From: a virus
Virus record (IMG/VR): IMGVR_UViG_3300030419_007903
Location: 1,194-65,193 of that record
DNA: 64,000 bases
Direction: 5' to 3' (one strand)
The notes beneath the pieces were generated by a model, which was given only the letters and a program-made list of their open reading frames with translations, did not search any database and had not been told where the DNA came from. Numbering within the stretch: position 1 is the stretch's first letter; each line of letters opens with the position of its first letter. The translations under genes and the position numbers were made by a program. Below are positions 9,341 through 35,356 of this stretch, piece after piece.

Positions 9341-9571
9341 TTACTTTCGTGACTTGGATTTTTTTCCAAAATCTAAAAAACGAGCGATCTCTTGCTCTTC
9401 ATTTCCGGGGGCATCGCGATGATAAAGGATACCTTTAGATCGTTTTGCGCACTCTGTCGCCCAATCTACAGCTTTAGATTTACCAAGTTTTTCGCTGTAA
9501 GCACCCATATAAGTGCCTTTCTTATCTCTTACAATATAAGAGCCGCTCTGAGTCAATGATTGATTTTCCAT
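9341..9571 (-). CDS. hypothetical protein (76 aa)
   Basis: A basic 76-residue protein with SGSYIVRDKKGTYMGAYSE, a short beta-hairpin-like segment, and a Lys/Arg-rich tail. ATG at 9571; upstream sequence is A/T-rich with a TATAAT-like hexamer about 15 bases before the ATG and no Shine-Dalgarno match. Function unknown. Confidence 0.6.
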   Translation of the reverse strand: MENQSLTQSGSYIVRDKKGTYMGAYSEKLGKSKAVDWATECAKRSKGILYHRDAPGNEEQEIARFLDFGKKSKSRK

Positions 9572-9594
9572 TGATATAATATTATAGTATGTAA

Positions 9595-9855
9595 TTAAGA
9601 AACCTTAATGAGAACGTCGTGAATCATGTGGCGCGTTTTATAGTCAAGAACACGCCCGTCATCGTCTGTTGGTAATTCGTTGATTACCGCTCCTGTATTT
9701 AAATGCAAAACTTCACTCATGCATTTGATTTTTCGTAAAATCCCGATCTCTTTATATTTCAAGATACTCCACAAAGTATCTACTTGAACGGGACTAGCGT
9801 CTCTGATCGCATCGATCAAGATCGCTCCAGAGTTTTGTATTATTTTAGTATCCAT
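9595..9855 (-). CDS. hypothetical protein (86 aa)
   Basis: An 86-residue protein (MDTKIIQNSGAILIDAIRDA...). ATG at 9855 lies downstream of a good sigma70-type promoter (9878-9905), so this may be the first gene of a transcript. No domain recognised. Confidence 0.6.
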   Translation of the reverse strand: MDTKIIQNSGAILIDAIRDASPVQVDTLWSILKYKEIGILRKIKCMSEVLHLNTGAVINELPTDDDGRVLDYKTRHMIHDVLIKVS

Positions 9856-9877
9856 AGGAATGAAACAATATTTTATA

Positions 9878-9905
9878 AGTATAAGTTTTTATAACAGTTT
9901 GTCAA
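9878..9905 (-). promoter_or_regulatory. sigma70-type promoter, upstream of 9595-9855
   Basis: On the minus strand TTGACA (9900-9905) is followed after 16 bases by TATACT (9878-9883), with the ATG of the next gene 22 bases further. TTGACA lies across the end of the preceding gene, which stops at 9889. This is a near-consensus housekeeping promoter by inspection; no start site is known. Confidence 0.5.
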
Positions 9906-10125
9906 GTGTTTTTTCGTGAAAAACAAAGTTATGATAGTTGTTAGTGGTAAGTACATCTAACTCAAACAACATCAAAGTTTTATAACTGAAAAGAGTTTGA
10001 GTGTCAAGCTTTTCGTCCGAAAAAATTTTATGTATGATACCAGTCAAAAATTTATCAATATTTTTATTAGCGTCGATGTCAGAAAGATCCTTCGGTAACT
10101 GCAAGATGTGGTAATGGTACTTCAC
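9889..10125 (-). CDS. hypothetical protein (78 aa)
   Basis: A 78-residue protein starting with GTG at 10125 inside the 3' end of the RmlB-like gene (47-base overlap). It is rich in Leu, Asp and Tyr (MKYHYHILQLPKDLSD...) with no known motif. The large overlap and GTG start make it less certain than its neighbours, though it fills a region otherwise lacking a gene. Confidence 0.5.
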   Translation of the reverse strand: MKYHYHILQLPKDLSDIDANKNIDKFLTGIIHKIFSDEKLDTQTLFSYKTLMLFELDVLTTNNYHNFVFHEKTLDKLL

Positions 10126-11101
10126 TTTTTAAAAAATTGTAAAAAAAATGATCTACAGTTTTTCTTAAGCCTTGGTTAAAGTTAAAATGGTCACATGGCT
10201 GAAAGTCTTTTTTAAATTTTTCACAATTTAATTTATAGGATTTATCGTGTCCTAACCTATCTTTCACATGTTCAATAATAGGAGCAGAGGGGAGGTTTGC
10301 GATACGTTTTACAATATTATAAATAGTATACGCCATATGTAAATTTTCCACAGAAGTCCCATCACTTATACAATAATCTTCAAAGTTAGTTTCCCTGTGA
10401 CAAATTTGAGTTATATACTTGACACAATTTTCTACATACATCCATTCTCTCTCTTGAGAGCCATCGCCATAAATAGGAATACTTTCATTCTTAAGGGCAT
10501 GCAAAATTATAGTTGGAATAAATTTTTCAAAATGCTGACGAGGGCCAAAATTATTAGAAAGCCGCAGAATATTGGCCTTTAAATTGTAAGTTTTTCTAAA
10601 AGAATGTATAAACATTTCTTGTGCCGCCTTTGATGAAGAATAGGGGGACGAAGGCCTCAAAGGGCTCTCTTCGTCAAAAACTGATTTAGAACTATCCGTT
10701 AAGTCTCCGTAAACTTCATCGGTTGAGATATGAACTAATTTTCCAATTTTGCCTGCTTTTTGCCAAGCACAACATACTTCTAAGAATTTAAAGAAGGAAT
10801 TAATATTATTATCTAAAAAACTTAAAGGATTCTCAAGGGAATTATCTACATGGGAATGGGAAGCAAAATTTATAACTACATCAAAATGTGAAGCCTCTTT
10901 TATCAAGTCGCATTTTTTATTAATATTTCCTATGTCTTCAATAAGACATTTATAGCGGTAATCAGCAGGCCTAAAGTTTTTATTAGCCGCATAACTACCT
11001 TTATCAATATTAAGAATAGATTGAGTCTCGCTCCGATTTAATAAATGCTCAATAAAATGAGAACCTATAAAACCTAATCCTCCTGTAACCAAATAATTCA
11101 C
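10079..11101 (-). CDS. rmlB: dTDP-glucose 4,6-dehydratase-like (RmlB)
   Basis: A 340-residue extended short-chain dehydrogenase with the NAD motif GGLGFIGSH at the N-terminus, the diagnostic STDEVYG (Thr-Asp-Glu catalytic triad of 4,6-dehydratases), YSSSKAAQE (Tyr and Lys) and NNFGPRQHFEKFIP. RmlB converts dTDP-glucose to dTDP-4-keto-6-deoxyglucose. It follows RmlA- and RmlD-like genes with GTGA and TAATG overlaps, so the three form a cassette for a dTDP-deoxyhexose. Start is GTG at 11101. UDP- rather than dTDP-glucose as substrate cannot be excluded. Confidence 0.88.
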   Translation of the reverse strand: MNYLVTGGLGFIGSHFIEHLLNRSETQSILNIDKGSYAANKNFRPADYRYKCLIEDIGNINKKCDLIKEASHFDVVINFASHSHVDNSLENPLSFLDNNINSFFKFLEVCCAWQKAGKIGKLVHISTDEVYGDLTDSSKSVFDEESPLRPSSPYSSSKAAQEMFIHSFRKTYNLKANILRLSNNFGPRQHFEKFIPTIILHALKNESIPIYGDGSQEREWMYVENCVKYITQICHRETNFEDYCISDGTSVENLHMAYTIYNIVKRIANLPSAPIIEHVKDRLGHDKSYKLNCEKFKKDFQPCDHFNFNQGLRKTVDHFFYNFLKSEVPLPHLAVTEGSF

Positions 11102-20377: not shown

Positions 20378-21583
20378 TTAAGCAAATAATTGATCGGGAG
20401 CTTCAATTCCACCTATAATAGTATAGACAACTAATCCTTTTTTAGAAGTATGGTAGATGCCCCGATGAACGGTGGAACCCTCTCCCAACAGTCGCGTTAA
20501 CTGTTCAAATCCATGCTCTAGGCTTTCTTGAGGAGTATTTTCTAAAGTGTCTTTATCTCCAATGACAACACATGCAGCAAATTTTCCAGTATTAACATCA
20601 ATATTGGCTAAAATATTCTTCTTTAAATTGTCCCGTACCGCATGGCTGATATCCGTTTCTTCAATGGTATCGCCGGAAGGCCTTACCGGAACAGCTCCGA
20701 AAGAAATAATTCCAGATGACATTACTGTATCTAAGTCAGCCTTATCAAAAGCAGTATATTCAGAATCTTGCGCCGCAATCTTATTAAATAAATGAAATAG
20801 GGAGCAAATACTAGTATTTGCTGTATTCCAAAATTTATTCACAGAAAGTTTCGGATAAAGATGTTTGATCCTCTCATTATCTAAAATAATTAAAGGTGAT
20901 AAAGTGCCGTTAGTTGAATATTTAATTAAAGCGTCTGCTGTTTCCTTCGCGTTATTTTTAACGCGGGAACCTTCGGATTTAGTAGGTAAAGCTAGCACGG
21001 CCCCTACTTTTGCTTCATAATCAGACTGCTCTACGCCAAAAGTCTGACATAAATCGTGGCACACATCCACTACAATAGGGCCTCCGCCAGCCCCCGTACC
21101 TCCCCCAGCACCGATACATACTAGGATGCGGTCAATGCTGCTGCTAAAAGCTTTCTTAAGAAAATCTAGAATATCTTCTTTGTGTTCCTCAAATATTTTT
21201 TGAGCTACTTTTCTATCTTTTCCTGCTCCAGCACCTCCGATGAGCAATTTATTTTTTTCGGGTAATGCTATAGGTTTTAAATCTTGAGCTGCCGTATTGA
21301 TAACAGCTACTCTTCTGTAACCTAATTTCCAAAAAGTTTCCGCTAATCGGGAACCTCCTTGGCCCACTCCCACAACAGCAAATCTATAAGCACTATCAAA
21401 TTCATCTTCAATAACAACTTCTTGCGTATCTTCGGCAGAAGGAAGAGGAATGTCTGGTATATCTACCGCCAGTTCATCAACTTCCTCAATTAAATCGGCC
21501 TTGATCTCTTCTTTATTCTCAGAGGCCTCTACTTGATTGTTTTCTGGTTCTTCCATTTTATATTCAGCTAAGGTTGGCATCAT
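20378..21583 (-). CDS. tubulin/FtsZ-superfamily GTPase
   Basis: The 401-residue product has an acidic, low-complexity N-terminal tail (about residues 1-60), then a GTPase core: AVVGVGQGGSRL (about 69-80), the tubulin signature GGGTGAGG at about 150-157, and a T7-like loop AFDKADLDTVMSSG carrying Asp residues needed to hydrolyse GTP in the next subunit, although the usual Asn of the FtsZ loop is replaced. Phage tubulins (PhuZ, TubZ-like) position or segregate phage DNA; here the closest resemblance is to FtsZ/CetZ-like proteins. ATG 21583 is preferred to TTG 21592. Followed by a terminator, preceded by an ssDNA-binding-like gene. Confidence 0.85.
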   Translation of the reverse strand: MMPTLAEYKMEEPENNQVEASENKEEIKADLIEEVDELAVDIPDIPLPSAEDTQEVVIEDEFDSAYRFAVVGVGQGGSRLAETFWKLGYRRVAVINTAAQDLKPIALPEKNKLLIGGAGAGKDRKVAQKIFEEHKEDILDFLKKAFSSSIDRILVCIGAGGGTGAGGGPIVVDVCHDLCQTFGVEQSDYEAKVGAVLALPTKSEGSRVKNNAKETADALIKYSTNGTLSPLIILDNERIKHLYPKLSVNKFWNTANTSICSLFHLFNKIAAQDSEYTAFDKADLDTVMSSGIISFGAVPVRPSGDTIEETDISHAVRDNLKKNILANIDVNTGKFAACVVIGDKDTLENTPQESLEHGFEQLTRLLGEGSTVHRGIYHTSKKGLVVYTIIGGIEAPDQLFA

Positions 21584-21588
21584 TTCTA

Positions 21589-22188
21589 TCAAAAAGGAGC
21601 GTCATCCTCTTCAATATTTACACGTGTTTCAGACTTTTTTTCTTTATTTTGAGTAGCTGGAGTAGACTTTGTTCCTCCATCGGCTCTATATTCCTCTTCT
21701 TGTTGAGCTTTTACGTCAAAAACTACCTGAAAATATCTCTCAATTAATTTTTTTAAAACCTCAGTTTCTCCCGGTTCTAAAGCAATTCTATAATTCTGAT
21801 TGCCATTACGTGTCACTGCGAGTCCAAAAGCGGGAGATTTGTAAGTTTGATCGACTCCATCTTTCCCTTTGATTTTTCTTGGCTTGTCCCACGGTGCAAA
21901 ACGAATAGTAGTAGTGTTATCATTATAATTATGGTATGAATTCCATGGAATGCGAGAACTAATAGACGATAAAATTTCTCCTAGCTCAAAGTCGTTCAAC
22001 TTAAAACTTACATTTTTGTCATCCGCATCTTTATTTTTAATAAAACTGCCGGTCTTCTTTTTATCATCCCAGCTATGTTGTTGAATAGCATTGACATAAA
22101 AAACAGGCAGTTTGCCTTGCGTAGAAACACGAAAACTGAAAGCACATCCAGTATTTTTAGAATTGGGCTTATAAATAGCTACGTTCAT
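21589..22188 (-). CDS. putative single-stranded DNA-binding protein
   Basis: A 199-residue protein with a beta-rich core (NVAIYKPNS..., KNVSFKLNDFELGEILSSI, TTIRFAPWDKPRK) and a Lys/Thr-rich linker ending in EEDDAPF. An acidic tail closing with Asp-Asp-x-Pro-Phe is the hallmark of bacterial SSB proteins and recruits partners. The core is not an obvious OB fold by eye; it resembles PC4/whirly-like ssDNA binders (from memory). The replication context supports the role. First gene after the terminator at 22225. Confidence 0.6.
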   Translation of the reverse strand: MNVAIYKPNSKNTGCAFSFRVSTQGKLPVFYVNAIQQHSWDDKKKTGSFIKNKDADDKNVSFKLNDFELGEILSSISSRIPWNSYHNYNDNTTTIRFAPWDKPRKIKGKDGVDQTYKSPAFGLAVTRNGNQNYRIALEPGETEVLKKLIERYFQVVFDVKAQQEEEYRADGGTKSTPATQNKEKKSETRVNIEEDDAPF

Positions 22189-25070: not shown

Positions 25071-27512
25071 TTAAAAATCCACACAAACTTTATCAGATTT
25101 TTTGTCGTATTTTACAGAGAATTCTGTCTTCTGAGTATTAGCCACTATCTCTCGAGAAATAACATCTGACACCTCTCTTTGAATAATTCTTTTAATCGAG
25201 CGAGCACCAAATTCTTTATCGCTTACTTTTGTAAAAATAAAATTAGATAAGTTTCTGGAGAAACAAAGGGTAAGTCCATTATTACCCGCGCTTTCCTTCA
25301 GGTTTTTTAATTCATAATTAATTATAGATCTTAAATTTGCATCAGATAATTTATTGAAAAATAAAACATCATCAAAACGATTGATTAATTCTAAAGGCAA
25401 TAGTTTTTTAACTTCCTTAAAAGCGTCTTCTACATTTGACTCTTGCAAGTTTTCAGACCCAAATCCTAAAGATTGAGTTTTAGATAATTGAGCTGATCCT
25501 ATATTTCCCGTAACTATAATAATTGAGTTATGAAAGCGACCTACGCGGCCATGCGAATCAGTCAGTCTACCTTCATCTAGAATCTGCAATAACATCTGAT
25601 GAACTTTTGGGTGAGCTTTTTCTATTTCGTCAAACAAGATAACACAATGAGGATTTTTACACACCTTCTCTACTAGTAATCCTCCATTCTCGTGACCTAT
25701 ATAGCCCGGATTAGAGCCAGTTAACTTGGAAACACTAGATTCTTCAGAAAATTCAGACATGTCTAAGTGCATAAAGCTCTCTTTGCTCCCAAAAAAAGTA
25801 CTGGCCAGCATTTTAGCTAAAAAAGTCTTGCCTACTCCAGTGGTGCCCAAAAATAAAAACGAACCAATAGGTCTATTTCCGTCTCGCAATCCACTTTTAT
25901 GCCTCATTAAGCACTTAGAAATAGTTTCAACAGGCTTCTCTTGACCTACAATAACTTTTTTTAATTTTTTTTCTAAATATAGATACTTTTCTGTTTCTGA
26001 TTTAAGAAACTCATCTAAAGGAATATTAGTTTTAGTAGAAAGTACTTCAAATAAATGATTACGAGTCAACTTATATTTGTTGGAGGTTATTTTATTCTGC
26101 CATGAAATTAACGCTTTTTTCAAAGCCTCAAAAGTCGTGGATTGATCGTCATTCATGTTTGTAAAAGAATTGCCAATTTTAGAGAAAGATTCCACTAATG
26201 AATTCTCAAGGTCTGCTATTTTTTTTGGTTTAACAATTTTTTTGACTTTGACGTGACTACATGCCAAGTCCATTAAATCAATTGCCTTGTCCGGAAATTG
26301 TGAATCAAGCATATAGCGATCTGAATAATCGACTATGTCATTAAGTATTTCTTCAGAAATAGCAACTGAATGATATTCTTCATAAATAGTTTTTTTTCGT
26401 AAAAGAATCTCTAAAGTAGATTTTTTACTAGGCTCATTAATAACCAAAGATTGGAATCTTCTTTGAAGAGCTTTATCTTTTGTGAATTTTTGCCGATATT
26501 CTTTGAATGTAGTAGCCCCTACAACTGTTATTTCTCCATTAGATAAGGCGGGCTTGAGTATATTAGCTGCATCTAAACCTCCCTCTGCGTCTCCAGCCCC
26601 GATTAAAGTATGAATTTCATCTATAAATAATATAACAGAATCATGCTTTGCTTCTTCAATTACCTGTTTTATGCGGGCCTCAAACTCTCCACGGTATTTA
26701 GTACCGGCAAGCATAGAGCTTAAATTCAGTTCATAAAAAATTTTGTCGTTAAGAAAAAATGAAGATTTATTGCGGACAATGTTTTGAACTAATGCTTCTA
26801 CCACAGCAGTCTTGCCCACTCCAGCTTCTCCGATAATAATAGCGTTATTCTTCTTTCTCCTGTTTAAAATATCCTCAAGCTTGCTAACTTCTTCTTCTCT
26901 GCCGTAAACGGGATCAAGTTTATTTTCTAAAGCTTTTTGAGTCATATTTGTTCCCAACTTATCTAGCAGCGCAAAATGCTGACGCTGACTAGAAGAGCTA
27001 ATCATATCTTGAACAGTCCCTTCATTCATAGAGCTCGAAATATCATTGCTATCTTCAGCATCACACAAATAATCTAAAACTTTTGTAGTGACAAAGTTCA
27101 TATCAACACCAAGAAAGACTAATATCTCGTCCGGAATTAATGCTATATCTTTAAATATAGCCATAAAAATATGCTCAGCGCTCACCCATGAATGAGACAA
27201 ATCTTGCGCCAACTGAGTCGCGTTTTTTAACACTTCTTTTAACTCGGCAGAAAGCTTGAATTCATCGGGTTTTAATTTCTCTGGCTGCTCCACCAAAACA
27301 GTTGCGTATAGGTGATGTCGGAAATTATTGAGGTCCAGACCGGCCTCAACTAAAACTTCAATGCATCGACTTTTCTTCAATTCAAAGAATGCTGCAAATA
27401 AATGTGCCACACCTACATCTGTGTAGTTGAGTTCTTGCGCTATCTTCTTACAAAGCTGCAACAGCTTTTGCGAGCGAGGGGTAAAATTAATATCTTGGTT
27501 ATCTAGCGTCAT
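25071..27512 (-). CDS. ClpA/ClpC-type AAA+ unfoldase
   Basis: The 813-residue protein has a Clp N-domain (about 1-150), a first AAA+ module with GEAGVGKT (228-235) and ILFIDEIHTLIGAG, a short middle region, and a second AAA+ module with GTTGVGKTFLA and VILFDEIEKAHPKVHQ. In the second module, QSLGFGS carries the L-G-F tripeptide at the position where ClpA/ClpC/ClpX dock on ClpP; ClpB disaggregases lack it. No ClpP is seen in the window, so the protein may recruit host ClpP to degrade chosen proteins. ATGA overlap joins it to the polymerase gene. Confidence 0.92.
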   Translation of the reverse strand: MTLDNQDINFTPRSQKLLQLCKKIAQELNYTDVGVAHLFAAFFELKKSRCIEVLVEAGLDLNNFRHHLYATVLVEQPEKLKPDEFKLSAELKEVLKNATQLAQDLSHSWVSAEHIFMAIFKDIALIPDEILVFLGVDMNFVTTKVLDYLCDAEDSNDISSSMNEGTVQDMISSSSQRQHFALLDKLGTNMTQKALENKLDPVYGREEEVSKLEDILNRRKKNNAIIIGEAGVGKTAVVEALVQNIVRNKSSFFLNDKIFYELNLSSMLAGTKYRGEFEARIKQVIEEAKHDSVILFIDEIHTLIGAGDAEGGLDAANILKPALSNGEITVVGATTFKEYRQKFTKDKALQRRFQSLVINEPSKKSTLEILLRKKTIYEEYHSVAISEEILNDIVDYSDRYMLDSQFPDKAIDLMDLACSHVKVKKIVKPKKIADLENSLVESFSKIGNSFTNMNDDQSTTFEALKKALISWQNKITSNKYKLTRNHLFEVLSTKTNIPLDEFLKSETEKYLYLEKKLKKVIVGQEKPVETISKCLMRHKSGLRDGNRPIGSFLFLGTTGVGKTFLAKMLASTFFGSKESFMHLDMSEFSEESSVSKLTGSNPGYIGHENGGLLVEKVCKNPHCVILFDEIEKAHPKVHQMLLQILDEGRLTDSHGRVGRFHNSIIIVTGNIGSAQLSKTQSLGFGSENLQESNVEDAFKEVKKLLPLELINRFDDVLFFNKLSDANLRSIINYELKNLKESAGNNGLTLCFSRNLSNFIFTKVSDKEFGARSIKRIIQREVSDVISREIVANTQKTEFSVKYDKKSDKVCVDF

Positions 27513-30124
27513 TTTAAGTCAGAAAGTTTCATGTAAATTCTTTGATCTAAAACACTCATGTCGTTTACAAAAACAGTTCCATCTCCTTTACGGCCTGTGA
27601 TTATAGCAATGGAGTCTTTTTCTGGCAAGCTTTTTCCTTTATTTAAATACGGCTGATATTCTCTCTCCATAAATATACACTTAGCCTCTGAAGTTTCATC
27701 TGACGCGACAATAAAATAATACTTTTTATTAGTCTGTGAAGTTTTTTTAAGGCATGACTTGACCGTTCCTACAAATTTGACAAAAGCATTATCAGTAAGC
27801 TCGAATATTTCTTTGCAGGTTATCATAGAATCTTTGTCCCGGCCTCTAAATGTATCTTTAAGTTTCTTGGTATAACTATAACCTAATAATTGTTTTTCAA
27901 AATACCAATTAGCAAAATCTTCATTATTGCCTTCATTATTTTTATCATAGATAGATTTATAGGGTTCATATTTAGCTTTGAAAGTCGCAAGGCGACTAGG
28001 CTTCATGAAAGGACGGTTATCGTCTCCCATTAGTGGAGGTTCCGTCTGCGTTGCCCTTTTAATAATTTTTAAAATGTCATAATTATATTCTTCCCCTAAA
28101 GCTTTGGCTATTCTTCTTTCTCTATCTGTTAAGATATTATAAGATTGAGCTTCTAATACTAGCCGAGCTCTAGAATTGCTCCCCGCAAAAGAGTTTAAAG
28201 TCCCTGCTTGAATCAATCCTGAAAAAACGCCTATATTTATTCCTGCTTGCTTGGCTGCCTCAAAGACTTCAAATTTATTTAATTCCTCCGGACTACCTTT
28301 TCTGAAGGTCAGGATACTTTGAAGGCTTTTCAAGCTCACTCCTTTTATTGCGTCTAGACCATAACGAATATTTTTACCTTCAATCGAAAATTCTTCTTGA
28401 GATTTTGCTAAGTCAGGACGTAATAACTTCATTTCATACATAGGTAATTCGGAAGCTACCTTGCTTATTTGGTCAAACGGCTCCGACTCATTTTTGGCCA
28501 TCTTAAGGAGAGCTACAAAAAACTCTTGTGGATATTTAAATTTAACATAGGTTGTCCACGCTGAAAGCATAGCATAAGAAATCGAATGAGACTTATTAAA
28601 AGAATAGTTGGCACTATCTTCCGCCACTTGCCACAATACATCTGCTATCTCCATTCCTCGATGCCCAGTCCATGCGTTAGTTAAGCGCTTTTCCTCTACT
28701 TTTTTGGCAATCTTTTCCCTCCATGCGGGCATCTGGTCAACTTTCTTCTTGCCTACAATTCGACGGAGCTGTTCCGCTTCATCTAAGGTAAATCCTACCT
28801 TAACCGCCATTTTCATTAACTGCTCTTGATAAAGCGGAATTCCTCCTGTATAATCTAATATTTCTGAAAACTCAGGATGCACTAATTCTGAGTCGCCGGT
28901 TCTAATATAAGAAGCATATTGGTCTTTAAAATTTAAAGCCCCGGGTCGCGCGATAGCTACCACCGCTGAAATCTCTTCTAAATTTCGAGGTTTTACTTTG
29001 CAGCATACATCAAAATTAGTATCTGCTTCAATCTGAAATAATCCCTGCCCTCCCCGAAAACGAAGGTCTTGTAAATTTTTATAAATAAAATCATCTTGCA
29101 AGTCAATCTTTTCAAAGTCAAGATCTATCCCTTGCGTAGTTTTGAGCATATTTTTTGCATCATTAATCACCGTTAAAGTTTTTAACCCAAGTATATCAAA
29201 TTTGACTGTAAGCTCAGCGATCCAATTCATATCATAGCAAGATATTAAATCTCCATCTTTAGTCTTTTGAATTGGACAAATATCAGTTAATTGATGATGC
29301 GAAATAGCAATCCCTGAAGCGTGAACACCTGTGTTCTTGATTAACCCTTCGAGCTTTCGCGCTACATTAAATGCTTCAGGATGCTTCTCGGTCCAATCTG
29401 AAAACTTTTCACTCTCTTCTTTCGCTGTGTTGAGTTTGGCTACTTTGCCGAAAACCACGGGAATCTGGTCGCTAACATCATTCATTTCATCCTCACTTAA
29501 AAGGCCAACTAGTTTTCCAACTTCTTTAATGCAAAGCTTGCCGCTTAATGTAACTAAATTTAAAATTTTACATGTACGGCCTTTATATTTTCTTTTAATA
29601 TATTCAATAACTTCTGATCGACGATCATAAGCAATATCGTTATCGACATCAGCTAATAAACTTCCATCTAAATAAGTAACTCCATTTTTTTCAATTTTAC
29701 GCGCTCTGGTACGGGAGACGAACCTTTCAAAAAATAAATCATATTTCAAAGGATCAACTTTAGTGACCCCTAAAAAATATAAAACTAAACTGCCTGCGGC
29801 CGAACCCCTTCCCGGCCCCGTGGGAATATTATTTTCATGGCAAAAATTTAAGACTTCCCAGTTTAATAATATGTAATCAACAAAACCTAATTCTTCAAAA
29901 ATAGAAATTTCCATCTTCATTCGGTCGATGTAATTTTTATCTTTTGTCGTAAAGCCTTTAGCTCGCATATTTTCACTACATAGCTTTTTAAGAAATTGCA
30001 GATTTGAACTATCTGAAGAAATGCCTAATTCTCGATAATACTTTTCTTCAATATTGATCTTAGGAAGTAGCACTCCTGCAGGAGCGCATTCATCGTAAGT
30101 GGTAAAATTGCTATAAAAACTCAT
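27509..30124 (-). CDS. dnaE: DNA polymerase III alpha, polymerase part without PHP domain
   Basis: The 871-residue product covers the palm, fingers, HhH and OB regions of bacterial DnaE. GPGRGSAAGSLVLYFLG and FFERFVS are conserved palm motifs; ADVDNDIAYDRRSEVIEYI matches the PDFDVDF catalytic segment with both Asp residues kept; KFDILGLKTLTVI supplies the third Asp region. The usual N-terminal PHP domain (about 270 residues) is missing and is encoded separately at 33538-34293. The start MSFYSN at ATG 30124 overlaps the exonuclease stop (ATGA) and corresponds to the point just after the PHP domain. Replicative polymerase of the element. Confidence 0.93.
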   Translation of the reverse strand: MSFYSNFTTYDECAPAGVLLPKINIEEKYYRELGISSDSSNLQFLKKLCSENMRAKGFTTKDKNYIDRMKMEISIFEELGFVDYILLNWEVLNFCHENNIPTGPGRGSAAGSLVLYFLGVTKVDPLKYDLFFERFVSRTRARKIEKNGVTYLDGSLLADVDNDIAYDRRSEVIEYIKRKYKGRTCKILNLVTLSGKLCIKEVGKLVGLLSEDEMNDVSDQIPVVFGKVAKLNTAKEESEKFSDWTEKHPEAFNVARKLEGLIKNTGVHASGIAISHHQLTDICPIQKTKDGDLISCYDMNWIAELTVKFDILGLKTLTVINDAKNMLKTTQGIDLDFEKIDLQDDFIYKNLQDLRFRGGQGLFQIEADTNFDVCCKVKPRNLEEISAVVAIARPGALNFKDQYASYIRTGDSELVHPEFSEILDYTGGIPLYQEQLMKMAVKVGFTLDEAEQLRRIVGKKKVDQMPAWREKIAKKVEEKRLTNAWTGHRGMEIADVLWQVAEDSANYSFNKSHSISYAMLSAWTTYVKFKYPQEFFVALLKMAKNESEPFDQISKVASELPMYEMKLLRPDLAKSQEEFSIEGKNIRYGLDAIKGVSLKSLQSILTFRKGSPEELNKFEVFEAAKQAGINIGVFSGLIQAGTLNSFAGSNSRARLVLEAQSYNILTDRERRIAKALGEEYNYDILKIIKRATQTEPPLMGDDNRPFMKPSRLATFKAKYEPYKSIYDKNNEGNNEDFANWYFEKQLLGYSYTKKLKDTFRGRDKDSMITCKEIFELTDNAFVKFVGTVKSCLKKTSQTNKKYYFIVASDETSEAKCIFMEREYQPYLNKGKSLPEKDSIAIITGRKGDGTVFVNDMSVLDQRIYMKLSDLK

Positions 30125-30753
30125 ATCTCTACATTCCAAATAAGTTTATTAAAAATTTTGAGAGTCATCTCGACATCATAAATCGCATCGTGCAGCTTCT
30201 TTGGGTCAAATTCAATATCAAACTCTTGCAAAAGAGTTTGTTGTCTAGTTTTTAGGCCTCTCTGTATATAGTTGTTAAGCTTACATTGCCAAAAAGTTAA
30301 ATTACCATCGGGCTGCTTTAGTCCTAACTTATAGGCTTTAGCGATACAATTTGTGTCTATAATTCTATTCATATAACTATAATCAGTTTTTTTGCCGCAC
30401 ATCTTTCTTAATATGTTATGAATGTAAACATCAAAACCAATTACATTGTGACCTATTAAAAGATAATCCTGATTATATAAATAATTATCAAAAAACTCTA
30501 GAACCTGCGCCGGCTTTTTCTTTTTTTTATCATGAGTTGACTGATTAAATCCAGTAATTTTTTTTGCCTCTGGGGAAATATCTAAGTCTGGTACATCAAT
30601 ATGAAGATCGTATCGATTAAGTATGTTATTGCCTTCTGTGACAATAAAGCCTAATTGCCACGGTCGAGAGTATCTTAGGTTTAAACCCTCGGTTTCAAAA
30701 TCGAATACAATATATTTCTGCTTCTTTCTAAAACGTAATAAACTATTGGTCAT
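30121..30753 (-). CDS. DnaQ-like 3'-5' exonuclease (proofreading subunit)
   Basis: The 210-residue protein has the DEDD exonuclease motifs: YIVFDFETEGLNL (Exo I, Asp18 and Glu20), LLIGHNVIGFDVY (Exo II) and HDAIYDVEMTLKIF (Exo III, His and Asp, DEDDh type). It most likely proofreads for the polymerase encoded next, to which it is coupled by an ATGA overlap. The SET gene upstream is coupled the same way. Confidence 0.9.
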   Translation of the reverse strand: MTNSLLRFRKKQKYIVFDFETEGLNLRYSRPWQLGFIVTEGNNILNRYDLHIDVPDLDISPEAKKITGFNQSTHDKKKKKPAQVLEFFDNYLYNQDYLLIGHNVIGFDVYIHNILRKMCGKKTDYSYMNRIIDTNCIAKAYKLGLKQPDGNLTFWQCKLNNYIQRGLKTRQQTLLQEFDIEFDPKKLHDAIYDVEMTLKIFNKLIWNVEI

Positions 30754-31193
30754 TTTTTCTCAATCTTACAGAAATCAAAATATTCCGAACCATAATCGAT
30801 AGTTAACTCAGATTCGGCTTTAATATCCCTGTTCGCTATATAAGAACATAGGAAGCGATTCTTGTCAATAAAATAATCTATATTATTGTTATCCGCGTGA
30901 TTGTATATCATGCCAAAGCCTAAAACCACAACGGGGCGCGTAGCGTGCTGACTTAATATCCCGTCATGCTCATCACAAAACTCTTTCCAATCTTTACGAA
31001 GCTCTACCCAAGGTAAAGCGTAACGCTTTAATTCTGGATCGCAATCTTCCCATTTGTTATTTTTTAATAAAATTAAATGGGCTTCCTCTATAGTATCTCC
31101 CTTTTTAAGATTATGAGTGCAAAAAACCCCGCGTCCTTCAATGGGTGATTGACGAATTTCTAAATGGGGAGATAAAGATAATTTATTATTCAT
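30750..31193 (-). CDS. SET-domain protein lysine methyltransferase-like
   Basis: The 147-residue protein is essentially a minimal SET domain: SPIEGRGVFCTHNLKKGD at the N-terminus, MIYNHADNNNIDY (the NHxxxxN motif that binds S-adenosylmethionine) and ESELTIDYGSEYF (the ELxxDY motif near the catalytic Tyr). SET enzymes methylate protein lysines, but the target here is unknown; it could modify host ribosomal or DNA-binding proteins. The pre- and post-SET Cys clusters of eukaryotic enzymes are absent. Confidence 0.85.
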   Translation of the reverse strand: MNNKLSLSPHLEIRQSPIEGRGVFCTHNLKKGDTIEEAHLILLKNNKWEDCDPELKRYALPWVELRKDWKEFCDEHDGILSQHATRPVVVLGFGMIYNHADNNNIDYFIDKNRFLCSYIANRDIKAESELTIDYGSEYFDFCKIEKK

Positions 31194-31198
31194 ATAAA

Positions 31199-31286
31199 TG
31201 GTACCGATGGCCGGACTCGAACCGGCACTCCTTCAACAGGAAACGGATTTTAAGTCCGTCGTGTCTACCAATTCCACCACATCGGC
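31199..31286 (-). tRNA. tRNA-Leu (anticodon UAA)
   Basis: An 88-base cloverleaf with acceptor stem GCCGATG/CATCGGT, a D-arm GTGGAATTGGTAGACAC, anticodon stem ACGGA/TCCGT with loop CTTAAAA (anticodon TAA), a long class II variable arm, T-loop GGTTCGAGTCC, and an encoded CCA (31199-31201). It reads UUA, a frequent codon in this A+T-rich genome. The 5' part overlaps the 3' end of the cytidylyltransferase-like gene on the same strand. Confidence 0.95.
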
Positions 31287-31712
31287 TTTAGTGAGCCAAC
31301 TACTGCTTTGTATTTTTTCCCCAAGGCCATAAATAGTTCTAACTCCTATTTGTTTACAAATTTTATGCTCAGGGGTATTTTTACCGCTTGTGCGATCTCC
31401 TCCATTGCAAAACATCATGTCCTCGTATTTACTTTTATAAAGAGCCCTCACCCATTCCAACGTATTACAAACCGTATCGTCGGTATCAGCAGATTCTATT
31501 ACTATATCCACAGGTTTTAAAGATTCTATGATTTTTATTCTTTCATTTAAAGGCATGAAAGGCTTTCCTTTCTTGCGCTCAAGAAAAGCATCGTCATTGA
31601 CAATAACACATAAATCGTCTGCCATACTTTTAGCTTTCTCAAAAAGCTCAATATGGCCTACGTGAACAGGGTCAAAACCACCGCTTACTATTGCTAATTT
31701 ATTTTTACTCAT
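31233..31712 (-). CDS. cytidylyltransferase-like nucleotidyltransferase
   Basis: The 159-residue frame has VSGGFDPVHVGHIELFEKAK, with the HxGH motif of the cytidylyltransferase/PPAT superfamily, LNERIKIIESLKPVD, and GLGEKIQSSSWL, where relatives usually end with KIQSSS. The last roughly 18 residues (from ADVVELVDTTDL on) are read from the tRNA-Leu gene. The functional domain is complete before the tRNA, so the extension is probably tolerated rather than needed. Substrate could be a sugar- or polyol-phosphate. Confidence 0.82.
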   Translation of the reverse strand: MSKNKLAIVSGGFDPVHVGHIELFEKAKSMADDLCVIVNDDAFLERKKGKPFMPLNERIKIIESLKPVDIVIESADTDDTVCNTLEWVRALYKSKYEDMMFCNGGDRTSGKNTPEHKICKQIGVRTIYGLGEKIQSSSWLTKADVVELVDTTDLKSVSC

Positions 31713-31715
31713 ATT

Positions 31716-31796
31716 TTACCATACCCAAACCATATAGTCGTAGTCTTCTACATCGGTAGGTAAAATGTCGTAATTACTCTTCAATTGGTAAGACAT
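31716..31796 (-). CDS. possible 26-aa microprotein
   Basis: A short ATG frame, MSYQLKSNYDILPTDVEDYD followed by YMVWVW, overlaps the 3' end of the 75-residue gene in another frame and stops 3 bases before the ATG of the cytidylyltransferase-like gene. The tight fit to the gap is suggestive but the length is too short to be sure. Confidence 0.25.
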   Translation of the reverse strand: MSYQLKSNYDILPTDVEDYDYMVWVW

Positions 31797-32001
31797 CGTA
31801 CATTTTGTGAATTGTTTCTTTAATGGCAGTATATTCTTCCTCCACTAAAATAGTTCCTCTTCTTAATTGAATATTAGTGTTACTGCTGCCTTTAGAATCT
31901 ACGGGAGAAAAAGAAGAGATCTTTTCCACGTTAAGAGAAATAGGTCTTTTATGTCCCGCCGTGATTCCACCTGTTATTATTTCAGTTAATTGTATAAACA
32001 T
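31774..32001 (-). CDS. FlbD-like small protein (75 aa)
   Basis: A 75-residue protein with MFIQLTEIITGG, ISLNVEKISSFSPV and ILVEEEYTAIKETIHKMY, the pattern of FlbD-like proteins (LTRLNG...I..I...P.T.I.L.NG..~~V.E). In bacteria FlbD-like proteins are associated with flagellar operons; phage and prophage relatives have no known role. Confidence 0.55.
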   Translation of the reverse strand: MFIQLTEIITGGITAGHKRPISLNVEKISSFSPVDSKGSSNTNIQLRRGTILVEEEYTAIKETIHKMYDVLPIEE

Positions 32002-32003
32002 AT

Positions 32004-32120
32004 TTATTTAATAAAAATTTTATAACACTTTTTGCAAAGCAACGAAAGCTTGCCTTTTGTTTGTACCCATGTCAAGTCAATTTCATCAAAAGGTTTTTTA
32101 CAATGGGTACAGTTGCACAT
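32004..32120 (-). CDS. 38-aa zinc-knuckle microprotein
   Basis: An ATG at 32120 opens 38 codons starting MCNCTHCKKPFDEIDLTW and ending CKKCYKIFIK: two CxxC knuckles about 20 residues apart, a plausible zinc ribbon. It stops 2 bases before the next ATG region. The 45 bases before its ATG are nearly the same as those before the HNH endonuclease gene at 50714-51922, whose product also opens with a CxxC pair. It may be a small regulatory protein or the remnant of a homing-type gene. Confidence 0.6.
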   Translation of the reverse strand: MCNCTHCKKPFDEIDLTWVQTKGKLSLLCKKCYKIFIK

Positions 32121-32167
32121 TATCTATCGTCCACTTGCTTTTGTTTTTCTGTCGAAAATTTTTTTGC
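32121..32167 (-). repeat. conserved leader, copy 1 (matches 51923-51969)
   Basis: The block directly before the ATG at 32120 reads, on the minus strand, AAAAAAATTTTCGACA, a 13-base A-rich part, then AGTGGACGATAGATA. The copy before the ATG at 51922 differs at only about ten positions and one single-base gap. Position directly before two start codons suggests a promoter plus translation leader or a mobile-unit boundary. Confidence 0.7.
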
Positions 32168-32179
32168 CTTCTTAAAGGA

Positions 32180-32256
32180 TGGTACCTCGGGCGGGACTCG
32201 AACCCACAACATTCTGCTTAGAAGGCAGACGCTCTATCCAGTTGAGCTACCGAGGC
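32180..32256 (-). tRNA. tRNA-Arg (anticodon UCU)
   Basis: A 77-base cloverleaf: acceptor GCCTCGG/CCGAGGT, D-arm TAGCTCAACTGGATAGAG, anticodon stem TCTGC/GCAGA with loop CTTCTAA (anticodon TCT), T-arm GTGGGTTCGAGTCCCGC, encoded CCA at 32180-32182. It reads AGA, abundant in A+T-rich phage genes. Followed immediately by the conserved leader of the zinc-knuckle gene. Confidence 0.95.
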
Positions 32257-32273
32257 AGGGCATTCAGCACCGT

Positions 32274-32504
32274 TTAATGTCCGTTCATCTTCTTGAGCTC
32301 TTTATGTATCTCGAAAACGACGAGCATTAATTCTGCATAAATGCGAACCGCTATTGGTCCTAGCACTATCATGCTAATTCCTGTAATGGAATCTACGCTT
32401 AATGTCATTATACCCATGATAACAACAACAAGCATCCCTATATAGCTGAGGATTTTTAAAACCCCCGGCGTAATCATGTATTCATAATTTAAGAATGTTT
32501 TCAT
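32274..32504 (-). CDS. DUF4282-like membrane protein (76 aa)
   Basis: The 76 residues contain two hydrophobic helices: ITPGVLKILSYIGMLVVVIM and ISMIVLGPIAVRIYAELMLV, then a charged tail. The TPxxxKxxY...G...RIxxELxxVxFxI pattern is that of DUF4282, a bacterial family of unknown role. Inner membrane by prediction. Confidence 0.7.
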   Translation of the reverse strand: MKTFLNYEYMITPGVLKILSYIGMLVVVIMGIMTLSVDSITGISMIVLGPIAVRIYAELMLVVFEIHKELKKMNGH

Positions 32505-32513
32505 GTCTTTATT

Positions 32514-32867
32514 TTATTTGATCACTCGATAACTATCGCTATCTTCGTGAAAAGTACTTATCTCTATAAATTTAACTTGCTGTCCGGTTGCGCAAAGGCG
32601 ATGAGGGATGAGAGGGTTAATTTCAAAACTATCCCCAGCCATTAAACAATGCAATGACTCTTCAGTCGTATCAGTATCAACTGTAACCAACTCTAACTCC
32701 CCTTCTATAACATAAAAAGTTTCATGTTTATTAGCGTGAAAATGCAATGACGTACTGCATCCGGGATTGATTGTTAAAATTTTTCCACAGTAATCATGCT
32801 CTTTATTATTAGCAAGCCACAGCTCGCTTCCCCATTCTTTTATTACGGTTTTTGTTGCTATTTGCAT
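32514..32867 (-). CDS. cupin-fold sugar isomerase-like protein
   Basis: The 117-residue protein is a single cupin barrel: IKEWGSELWLANN, then LHFHANKHETFYVIEGELEL (HxHxxxxE metal motif) and PLIPHRLCATG (second cupin motif His). It resembles the C-terminal domain of mannose-6-phosphate isomerase and D-lyxose isomerase-like cupins that act on sugar phosphates. A role in supplying mannose or another hexose to the glycan routes is possible. Its start overlaps the sulfotransferase stop by 10 bases. Confidence 0.75.
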   Translation of the reverse strand: MQIATKTVIKEWGSELWLANNKEHDYCGKILTINPGCSTSLHFHANKHETFYVIEGELELVTVDTDTTEESLHCLMAGDSFEINPLIPHRLCATGQQVKFIEISTFHEDSDSYRVIK

Positions 32868-33541
32868 GTCGTGATGCTCTCCTCTTGTTTAGTCCATATA
32901 TCTTTAAAGGTTTCAGTTAAATATAAAAAATTATCTTCACTTAATATTTTTTTTGCATAACCCGGCTCACCGGAAAAAATATGATCTCCATGGATGCCGG
33001 AGTCTTGATCGGTTTCGTGAAAATCTTTAAGTTTGTTTTGTATATTTTTATTAAAATCAATACTTGTCTTTTTTTCTATTTCTTGACGTTTATTCTTTTC
33101 AATTTTTACACCAAAAAATTCTTCAAATTTATCGAATATATAATTATGATTACAAAAAAGTTTTTCATATTCTAAAAAAAGCATATCTCCTTTGTAGTTA
33201 GTTTTTGCGTATTCCACGCACTCTAGCTCCCACTTATAATTATCTATCGTAAATTCTAATACTTCTGGAGCATTCTTTCTCAAATGAGTAACTTTTTCGT
33301 CAAAGCCGGTAAGAAAGTGGGGAATGCTATCAAATTGAGATACGCGGCACCACGATAAAAAAGAATCTACTTTATCCCTCTCGGTAATAATACAAGGGAA
33401 AGTGCTATTAGTGTATTCTTCTCCCATCTCTTTAGCGTGTATCTTTAAAACATTTGTAAATAGTTCGCGGGCGCATTGCCATACAACAGTAGAACCTGTT
33501 CGCGAAGCACTAAAAATAAGTATAGTATCTTTGGGTGTCAT
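32858..33541 (-). CDS. sulfotransferase-like protein
   Basis: The 227-residue protein starts MTPKDTILIFSASRTGST, a 5'-phosphosulfate binding loop (SxSRTGST), continues with FPCIITERDKVDSFLSW (3'-phosphate binding region) and ends with a helical part. Such enzymes move sulfate from PAPS to sugars or proteins. ATG 33541 gives an ATGA overlap with the PHP gene. The glycan context suggests a sulfated sugar; distantly similar P-loop sulfotransferase-fold proteins with other roles cannot be excluded. Confidence 0.72.
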   Translation of the reverse strand: MTPKDTILIFSASRTGSTVVWQCARELFTNVLKIHAKEMGEEYTNSTFPCIITERDKVDSFLSWCRVSQFDSIPHFLTGFDEKVTHLRKNAPEVLEFTIDNYKWELECVEYAKTNYKGDMLFLEYEKLFCNHNYIFDKFEEFFGVKIEKNKRQEIEKKTSIDFNKNIQNKLKDFHETDQDSGIHGDHIFSGEPGYAKKILSEDNFLYLTETFKDIWTKQEESITTCK

Positions 33542-34293
33542 TTTTCTAAAAAGCTCTCCATGCAAAATTCGTCGCTTCCACATCCGTCTAATTGAGGTGT
33601 TTTAATAGAAGCTCGTTTGCTAAAATTACGATTAGTTATCATCTTGTAAGTTTGAAAAGCTGTAAAATCTTTTCGATTTCGATAATAAATAGACTTTACT
33701 TCTTGAGTCGGAAATTTATTTAACTCAGTAAAATCTAAAACAGCATCTCTTAAAAGGTTGTCATATGGGAGGCCGTTGTCTTCTAAAAAGAAAATAGGAT
33801 TGTAGTAATCAAAGCTGTGCATAAAATTAGCCCCATACTTTAAATTATTTTGATATATAAAGGAGTCATAAAAAGGTATCGCTAACATTAGGTCCTTCTT
33901 GGTCCACATTTTTTTAAGATCTGGCTCAGTGATCTTGCCGCCGTGATCACAGAATACTTTAGAATAAATCTTATATAATTTTTTTACGCCCCTATCTCCT
34001 TTTGCAAAAATTACTATTTTATGAGAAGGGACTTTATTTTTTTCCACCTCGTATTGCTGGCACAAGTTAATACGAATGCCAAAGATGAGCTTGAGTTTGT
34101 TCTCCTCGCATCGTTTCTTCGTTTCGAGAAAGCCGTGCATCGAATCCTCTATGATTACAACTTCTTTTAAACCAGCATCTAGAGCAATATCTATAACACT
34201 ATCAGGTCCGTTTTTATCTACTTTTGATGGACAGTTAAGGGTCAAGATTGATTTCCCAATACTGTAGTGAGTTTTGAACAATGGTATAACCAT
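33538..34293 (-). CDS. stand-alone PHP domain of DNA polymerase III alpha (degenerate)
   Basis: The 251-residue protein matches the N-terminal PHP domain of DnaE over its length: FKTHYSIGKSILTLN corresponds to the HxHxxYS opening, VIDIALDAGLKEVVIIEDS to the AKxxGxxAxAxTDH segment, and LIFGIRINLCQQYE to the KPIxGxE segment; the C-terminal part (IYYRNRKDFTAFQTYKMI...) aligns with the PHP-palm linker. Several metal-site His/Asp are replaced (first His is Lys, TDH is EDS), so phosphatase or exonuclease activity is unlikely. It probably assembles with the polymerase protein at 27509-30124. A promoter directly precedes ATG 34293. Confidence 0.8.
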   Translation of the reverse strand: MVIPLFKTHYSIGKSILTLNCPSKVDKNGPDSVIDIALDAGLKEVVIIEDSMHGFLETKKRCEENKLKLIFGIRINLCQQYEVEKNKVPSHKIVIFAKGDRGVKKLYKIYSKVFCDHGGKITEPDLKKMWTKKDLMLAIPFYDSFIYQNNLKYGANFMHSFDYYNPIFFLEDNGLPYDNLLRDAVLDFTELNKFPTQEVKSIYYRNRKDFTAFQTYKMITNRNFSKRASIKTPQLDGCGSDEFCMESFLEK

Positions 34294-34299
34294 ATGAAA

Positions 34300-34328
34300 A
34301 TAATAAAACAAATAAGAAAAGCTGTCAA
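34300..34328 (-). promoter_or_regulatory. consensus sigma70 promoter, leaderless PHP gene
   Basis: TTGACA (34323-34328), a 17-base spacer and TATTAT (34300-34305), with the ATG at 34293 beginning 6 bases after the -10 box, so initiation would start at or next to the ATG (leaderless mRNA). TTGACA overlaps the TGA stop of the upstream nuclease gene (34325-34327). Confidence 0.65.
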
Positions 34329-35356
34329 GTATAATTCCACCTAGGGCAACCTGCATAACGCATCTTTTTGATATATTGATCAGGGCCACGCTTATTTACA
34401 AGCAGATAATAATTTTCAGGAAACTCTGTTTTAATTAATTTTCCCTCTTTATCATATAACGCATAATATTCAAAAGGAAACTTATAGACACAGTGCCACA
34501 TCGGGTTTCCGTCTTTTTTAAGTTGGCCGCGATATTTAGCAAACCCGCACACAATTTGCCCGCCAAAGCTTCCATCTTTTGGGCGAGGTTTGTCGGCTGC
34601 ATAGTTTGCTTTAGCATGCCGTTCTGAAAACTTCTCTAGGTAAGCTTGAGATTTAGTAAGTTCAATTTCAAATTTATTTAACTTAGTTGCCGAAAGCTTT
34701 TTCATCTTCATAGTGCCTTTGCCATTAAGATCAAATTTTAAAAATAAAAATTCACTGCGTCTGTTTTTGTAATCAGGAAAAAGTTTGCGAACCGCTAGGC
34801 AATATATATAATCTTGAAGATTTTTAGTTTCATCTTCTCCTTTGAAAATCTGCTTACTGGTTTTGAAGTCTCTTATTACAGCAGCATGATTCTTTTTATA
34901 TAAAAAAAGCTTATCAATAAAACCTTTAATACAATAATTTTTTTCATCTTCTTTAATGTGAAGATCAAATTCGTATTCTGTATGGGATTCAGTGGGTTTA
35001 ATTTTTGCTCCTCCAAAAAAATCATAATTTAACCCAGTTAAAGTCATTTGTTTTATCAGCTCTATGTTTTCATCATCATCTACATCAAGCTTTTTGGCTT
35101 GAATGTATACTAAACGCTTGATTGAGTCAACTGCAAATATGTCTTGGGCTTTAATTATTTTAGTGAATTTTTTCTTATGCCTTTGATGGCCCAAACATTC
35201 AAAGATTAAATGGCAAATGCTGCCTCTAGCTGCGCCGTCGTTTGTTTTATCTGGTAATTTTAAATGATATTTAGCCCAATAAAGCCAGCTACAAGTTTTG
35301 GCGGTTTTAAGCCTACTTGCGGAAAGTTTAACTATAGGTTTAGAATCGCTCATCAT
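34325..35356 (-). CDS. RecB/Cas4-like PD-(D/E)XK nuclease
   Basis: The 343-residue protein has LSASRLKTAKTCSWLYWAKY at the N-terminus, DGAARGSICHLIFE, and CIKGFIDKLFLYKKNHAAVIRDFKTSK spanning G-x-x-D and the D/E-x-K active site, as in RecB-family nucleases (PDDEXK_1). Cys residues near both ends (CSWLYW, CGFAKYRG, GCPRW) could hold an iron-sulfur cluster as in Cas4/AddB, though their spacing is not exact. It is coupled to the primase gene by ATGA and sits in the replication block, so a role in end processing or recombination is likely. Confidence 0.8.
   Translation of the reverse strand: MMSDSKPIVKLSASRLKTAKTCSWLYWAKYHLKLPDKTNDGAARGSICHLIFECLGHQRHKKKFTKIIKAQDIFAVDSIKRLVYIQAKKLDVDDDENIELIKQMTLTGLNYDFFGGAKIKPTESHTEYEFDLHIKEDEKNYCIKGFIDKLFLYKKNHAAVIRDFKTSKQIFKGEDETKNLQDYIYCLAVRKLFPDYKNRRSEFLFLKFDLNGKGTMKMKKLSATKLNKFEIELTKSQAYLEKFSERHAKANYAADKPRPKDGSFGGQIVCGFAKYRGQLKKDGNPMWHCVYKFPFEYYALYDKEGKLIKTEFPENYYLLVNKRGPDQYIKKMRYAGCPRWNYT

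Follow-up and report, generated by a model that had tools for sequence, protein, structure and literature searches.

A separate gene encodes the degenerate PHP domain of a DnaE-type polymerase in a phage clade

A DnaE-type DNA polymerase III alpha (Pol III alpha) without a PHP domain and a stand-alone PHP protein are encoded by separate genes in the virus record IMGVR_UViG_3300030419_007903. We analysed a window of 64,000 nucleotides, part of this 76,420-base record. In all 114 distinct loci that contain both the PHP and polymerase genes, one strand carries PHP, exonuclease and polymerase in that order, and no locus encodes a fused PHP-polymerase. Repeated in every one of these loci, the arrangement is far beyond chance. 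A preliminary description of this DNA had proposed a polymerase lacking PHP and a PHP gene standing alone, which the Pfam, PHROG and NCBIfam matches and all 114 loci confirm; the gene list also agrees that an exonuclease, a SET-domain gene, two tRNAs and others separate the two. The features of the window locus are as follows.

27509..30124, minus strand: PHP-less DnaE-type DNA polymerase III alpha, 871 aa, with palm, thumb, fingers, HhH and OB domains (Pfam, NCBIfam, AlphaFold2 and PDB matches)
30121..30753, minus strand: DnaQ-like 3'-5' exonuclease, 210 aa, overlapping the polymerase start
30754..33537, minus strand: insert between the PHP and exonuclease genes in the window phage
30750-31193: SET-domain protein, in the insert
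31199-31286: tRNA-Leu, in the insert
31233-31712: cytidylyltransferase-like ORF, in the insert
32180-32256: tRNA-Arg, in the insert
32514-32867: ORF, in the insert, where small ORFs are also present
32858-33583: sulfotransferase-like ORF, in the insert
33538..34293, minus strand: stand-alone, catalytically degenerate DnaE PHP domain, 251 aa (Pfam, PHROG, NCBIfam, AlphaFold2 and PDB fold matches)

Upstream of PHP lie genes for a PD-(D/E)XK nuclease, a Toprim primase-like protein, a DnaB-like helicase and a RecA/UvsX-like protein, which mark the neighbourhood as a replication gene cluster. From this setting we infer that the PHP-less polymerase is the replicative one. Clade contigs of up to 203 kb yielded no family A or B polymerase, and G000 and 12 relatives of up to 203 kb no recognisable bacterial-type DnaN sliding clamp. 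A ClpB/ClpA-like AAA+ disaggregase gene (window 25071-27512) directly follows the polymerase gene downstream, the two ends overlapping by 4 bases, and is kept at the same place in relatives. The window also encodes a Tubulin/FtsZ-like GTPase (TubZ/PhuZ-like; 20378-21592), as does relative L002.

Identity of the PHP, polymerase and exonuclease proteins

The polymerase ORF (27509-30139, minus strand) encodes 876 aa if translation starts at a TTG and 871 aa if it starts at the ATG at 30124. Pfam matches comprised DNA_pol3_alpha, DNA_pol3_finger and HHH_6, while Pfam PHP was not found in this ORF. The NCBIfam DnaE models scored 455-472 bits, with each match starting after the models' PHP region. 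The 871-residue protein begins at the palm, as had been described. PolC models were absent or under 35 bits, so that the best match is DnaE and not PolC, with DnaE palm and finger domains present. Its catalytic residues Asp 159, 161 and 310, which we take to be the equivalents of E. coli D401, D403 and D555, were invariant in 58 sequences. All 19 PDB fold matches with E<1e-3 to its AlphaFold2 model (pLDDT 87.9) were C-family polymerases.

The PHP gene occupies an open frame at 33538-34389, in which translation from the conserved start codon, an ATG at 34293, yields a protein of 251 aa. Pfam PHP matched this protein with 32.8 bits (cut-off 26.4). All of its NCBIfam matches were Pol III alpha models, and its PHROG matches were DNA polymerase III alpha families, save one PHROG of unknown function. 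PHROG 405 (phage DNA polymerase) was matched by the PHP protein at profile positions 62-265 of 1190 (8.7e-12) and by the polymerase from position 325; the two thus each supply a different part of a single known protein. No second PHP match was present in the 76,420-base record. When a PHP profile of 82 relatives was compared with seven whole bacterial genomes, three were matched, each only in a DnaE-length frame.

PDB sequence searches returned only noise with the PHP protein alone and only weak matches with the family profile, so its identity was settled by fold search. The AlphaFold2 model (pLDDT 90.3, pTM 0.88) had 18 PDB fold matches with E<1e-3, all of them Pol III alpha, the best being the crystal structure of an E. 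coli alpha-epsilon chimera. Sequence identity to DnaE PHP in the structural alignments was 12-17%. Among viral structures there were 19 significant matches, most named phage DNA polymerase III; the remainder were one phage PHP-domain protein and a few without an informative name. In predicted fold and in sequence, the protein is closest to the PHP domain of Pol III alpha. The NCBIfam and PDB fold matches thus agree with the preliminary description, which had assigned 33538-34293 as the DnaE PHP region encoded alone. No match to a non-polymerase PHP phosphatase was found, and the record holds no intact PHP domain fused to another polymerase.

Alignment with fused DnaE places the end of the PHP protein at E. 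coli residue about 246-252 and the start of the polymerase at 247-253, with some ten E. coli linker-helix residues left without an obvious counterpart where the chain is broken. The offsets of profile matches within fused bacterial DnaE are consistent with the same position. For comparison, the PHP domain of E. coli alpha comprises residues 1-270, and the 1-270 fragment alone is well behaved and retains full exonuclease binding (PMC3642679).

We scored the nine metal-coordinating PHP positions, as defined in PMC3666897, in 82 split PHP proteins. At eight of the nine, the canonical ligand was gone from all 82 proteins. The seventh position was variable, with no Cys among its common residues and His in 11 of 82; canonical-type letters there are due to chance. 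Lys stood at the H12 site in 79 of 82 proteins and at the H83 site in 81 of 82, although for the latter a one-residue alignment shift is possible (74 of 82 carry the adjacent H91). Lys or Arg occupied the D19 and E69 sites in all 82. In place of the loop with the seventh ligand stands the motif IPFYDS, five of its six residues being invariant. Loss of ligands had been noted earlier and holds, though its extent had been underestimated, as all nine positions are affected and not two. Because its metal ligands are gone, the protein is unlikely to be a PHP enzyme; because the replacement residues are fixed, they speak for a structural function that has been kept and against decay. Where a PHP metal site has been lost, Arg usually takes its place (PMC3666897), and the Lys/Arg replacements agree with this published remark.

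The exonuclease carries the DEDDh residues D18, E20, D108, H188 and D193. The first four were kept in 85 of 85 sequences and the last in 84 of 85. Its best NCBIfam match was the PolC exonuclease region (51 bits). At 210 aa, with the domain match reaching residue 201, it has no long C-terminal tail; lacking this PHP-binding element, it would have to dock differently from E. coli epsilon. Loss of the PHP metal site correlates with the presence of a separate proofreader (PMC3666897), and a dead PHP accompanied by an intact DEDDh exonuclease fits this correlation.

Constancy and evolution of the split

In IMG/VR, searches with single sequences and with alignments recovered 332 polymerase and 424 PHP relatives; we retained the best 80 of each. 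With the PHP protein, the single-sequence scan returned nothing, but alignment-based scans did recover relatives. Both genes were present in 159 loci, 114 of them distinct by polymerase sequence. Four polymerase loci without PHP were all cut by a contig end. A scan of genome contigs added six close relatives. The metagenome bins that hold them are labelled Saprospiraceae, Flavobacteriaceae (two), Verrucomicrobiales, Proteobacteria and Woesebacteria (labels of the bins only). All five relatives with enough upstream sequence were split alike, and the sixth was cut at the contig start. Assembly error as the source of the split is excluded by the 114 distinct loci.

From PHP stop to polymerase start, the 114 loci span 568-2651 bases with a median of 648, which is essentially the exonuclease gene itself. 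PHP and exonuclease genes abut or overlap in 74 loci, exonuclease and polymerase genes abut in 93, and both junctions are abutting or overlapping in 59. The minimal form, in L004-L006, consists of three overlapping genes. A SET-domain gene lies between PHP and polymerase in 19 of 114 loci, and the content of the 30754..33537 insert varies among relatives and falls outside the conserved core. The 3.4-kb separation is therefore incidental, and the conserved core is PHP-exonuclease-polymerase. As many relatives keep this compact form, the SET, tRNA and other genes of the window are, judged from gene order, late inserts and not the cause of the split. Within the insert, the ORFs at 31233-31712 and 32061-32330 run through, or antisense to, the tRNA-Leu and tRNA-Arg genes; given this overlap, the C-terminus of the former and all of the latter are probably not real protein.

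Two loci deviate at the polymerase itself. In L077 (5248-8580), the polymerase ORF carries about 250 additional in-frame residues at its N-terminus, where PHP would be fused; this extension has no Pfam match, and L077 also has a separate PHP gene. In L091 (8595-11182), the polymerase lies in two frames, with its near relative L090 intact, which reflects a frameshift or an assembly error.

In two further relatives, L119 (7712-11608) and L180 (7980-10964), the polymerase is interrupted a second time, at FNK|SHS, with an intein N-half at the end of the first part and an intein C-half at the start of the second. The intein_Cterm model scored above its cut-off in both, and intein_Nterm below. A 315-aa homing-endonuclease-like ORF (9492-10439; NUMOD3 and DUF559 matches) separates the halves in L119, as opposed to only 21 bases in L180. 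By these matches, the polymerase resembles a fractured gene with an apparent split intein. As intein halves were seen here, halves at the PHP break would probably have been detected too. None was found at the PHP C-terminus or the polymerase N-terminus, and intein models did not match PHP protein P0001 or the L004 PHP protein.

In an unrooted tree of 88 polymerases, the split polymerases formed one group with support of 100 on a long branch. Fused homologues had been expected in close relatives, but no close fused relative was found and the nearest fused polymerases are only about 30-34% identical to the split ones. Among the annotated cultured phages that we examined, most carry Pol III as one fused protein of about 1035-1160 aa. 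By parsimony the split is the derived state, because the remaining C-family members examined are either fused or broken elsewhere. The preliminary description had attributed the break to insertion or fission. Fission, derived and clade-wide, stands; insertion of a 3.4-kb block with tRNAs is contradicted by the compact core of relatives.

A fission model and its alternatives

We consider it probable that dnaE underwent one ancient fission and that the resulting PHP subunit, though catalytically dead, remains packed against the palm and serves to dock the proofreader. The gene would have been broken once, at the PHP-palm boundary, in the ancestor of a large clade of uncultivated tailed phages, leaving the PHP domain as a subunit of its own. 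A DnaQ-like exonuclease gene would have come to sit between the parts. By homology and E. coli biochemistry, PHP may bind the palm non-covalently and support the polymerase, and may also serve as the docking site for the exonuclease, so that the replicase core would be a PHP-exonuclease-polymerase heterotrimer. Proofreading would come solely from the exonuclease, and the Lys/Arg in former ligand positions may take over from the metals in keeping the PHP cleft together. PHP is known to stabilise Pol III, and in E. coli PHP mutations reduce polymerase stability and activity (PMC3666897).

A more specific and tentative proposal, which we hold possible yet distinctly less likely, is that PHP acts as an independent, metal-free adaptor linking proofreader to polymerase, potentially exchangeable or releasable, with proofreading attached in trans in the form of a PHP-exonuclease unit. 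Less likely still, PHP may have left the polymerase and joined the exonuclease in a two-protein proofreading module, never returning to the palm. The abutting or overlapping PHP and exonuclease genes in 74 of 114 loci favour such a module, as do the near-invariant IPFYDS at the former active-site loop, suggestive of a specific partner, and the full exonuclease binding of isolated E. coli PHP (PMC3642679). However, the exonuclease and polymerase genes abut in even more loci, the strongest partial correlation of PHP is with the polymerase and not the exonuclease, though weakly, and the E. coli mutations affect the polymerase (PMC3666897). The mirror-tree correlations (PHP-polymerase, r=0.88; primase-polymerase, 0.91) do not separate these readings, since neighbouring genes reach comparable values and the signal is not specific.

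The remaining explanations are far less probable. Derivation from a PolC-type gene (PHP-exonuclease-PHP-palm) broken into domains would account for the gene order and the PolC-like exonuclease match, but the polymerase scores as DnaE and the PHP protein, which is uninterrupted, resembles that of DnaE, making this very improbable. We give even less credence to PHP and polymerase being rejoined into one chain, through a split intein like that of cyanobacterial DnaE or through frameshifting. The apparent split intein of L119 and L180 provides a precedent, and overlapping starts suggest translational coupling; against these, the break lacks intein halves, the two proteins cover DnaE almost without overlap or gap, and another complete gene lies between them in every locus. 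It is equally hard to credit that 33538-34293 encodes an unrelated PHP-family phosphatase or nuclease, nearby by accident. The low identity to DnaE PHP would allow it, but the NCBIfam and PDB fold matches are to Pol III alpha, the metal ligands are gone, the pairing with a PHP-less polymerase is constant and the record has no other PHP. The fold search already refutes this reading.

Comparison with known systems

Bacterial DnaE with DnaQ (epsilon), as in E. coli, shares with the phage proteins the DnaE-type PHP, palm, thumb, fingers, HhH and OB domains, and pairs an inactive PHP with a separate DEDDh exonuclease. The phage differs in that PHP is a separate product and the exonuclease, without an epsilon-type tail, is encoded between PHP and polymerase. 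Cyanobacterial split-intein DnaE is likewise a replicative DnaE made from two genes. Its split lies in the catalytic core and is mended by protein splicing. The phage PHP, in contrast to the cyanobacterial system mentioned in PMC3919608, is split off without an intein.

Phage cores from separate genes include the minimal split Pol III of jumbo phage group 2.2, which is split within the catalytic core, lacks the other Pol III domains and coexists with a family B polymerase (PMC7824862). In the present clade, by contrast, the core is whole, PHP has its own gene and no family A or B polymerase was found. Cellulophaga phage phiST and Alicyclobacillus phage KKP_3916 also encode DnaE in several ORFs. 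The breaks are internal to the palm, leaving the N-terminal part joined to the first palm part, unlike in our clade. Pol III of phiST (L252, 41629-45229) lies in two adjacent ORFs broken inside the palm, and that of KKP_3916 (L166) extends across at least four ORFs; the feature tables shown annotate no polymerase gene at either place. Pseudomonas phage PB1, considered as a known split, proved to encode its polymerase in a single ORF.

A polymerase-family PHP without a polymerase also occurs in the PolX-like proteins of Actinobacteria (PMC12926913). These are of the X family, and the excerpt of that paper mentions no polymerase partner in trans, whereas the phage PHP is of the C family, dead and constantly partnered. 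The open-licence literature yielded no C-family polymerase whose PHP domain is a stand-alone subunit. According to PMC3666897, PHP is strictly conserved in C-family polymerases and shares a polypeptide with the palm, and PMC12926913 calls it universal among them. In all 114 loci, it lies instead on a separate polypeptide from the polymerase. The clade, comprising hundreds of contigs, is thus a natural exception to the PHP-on-polymerase-chain rule. It offers a ready-made two-part system in which to ask whether an inactive PHP serves as polymerase scaffold, as docking site for the proofreader, or both. If the adaptor reading were true, a widespread phage clade would have a three-subunit C-family replicase core, with a PHP that elsewhere is always on the polymerase chain.
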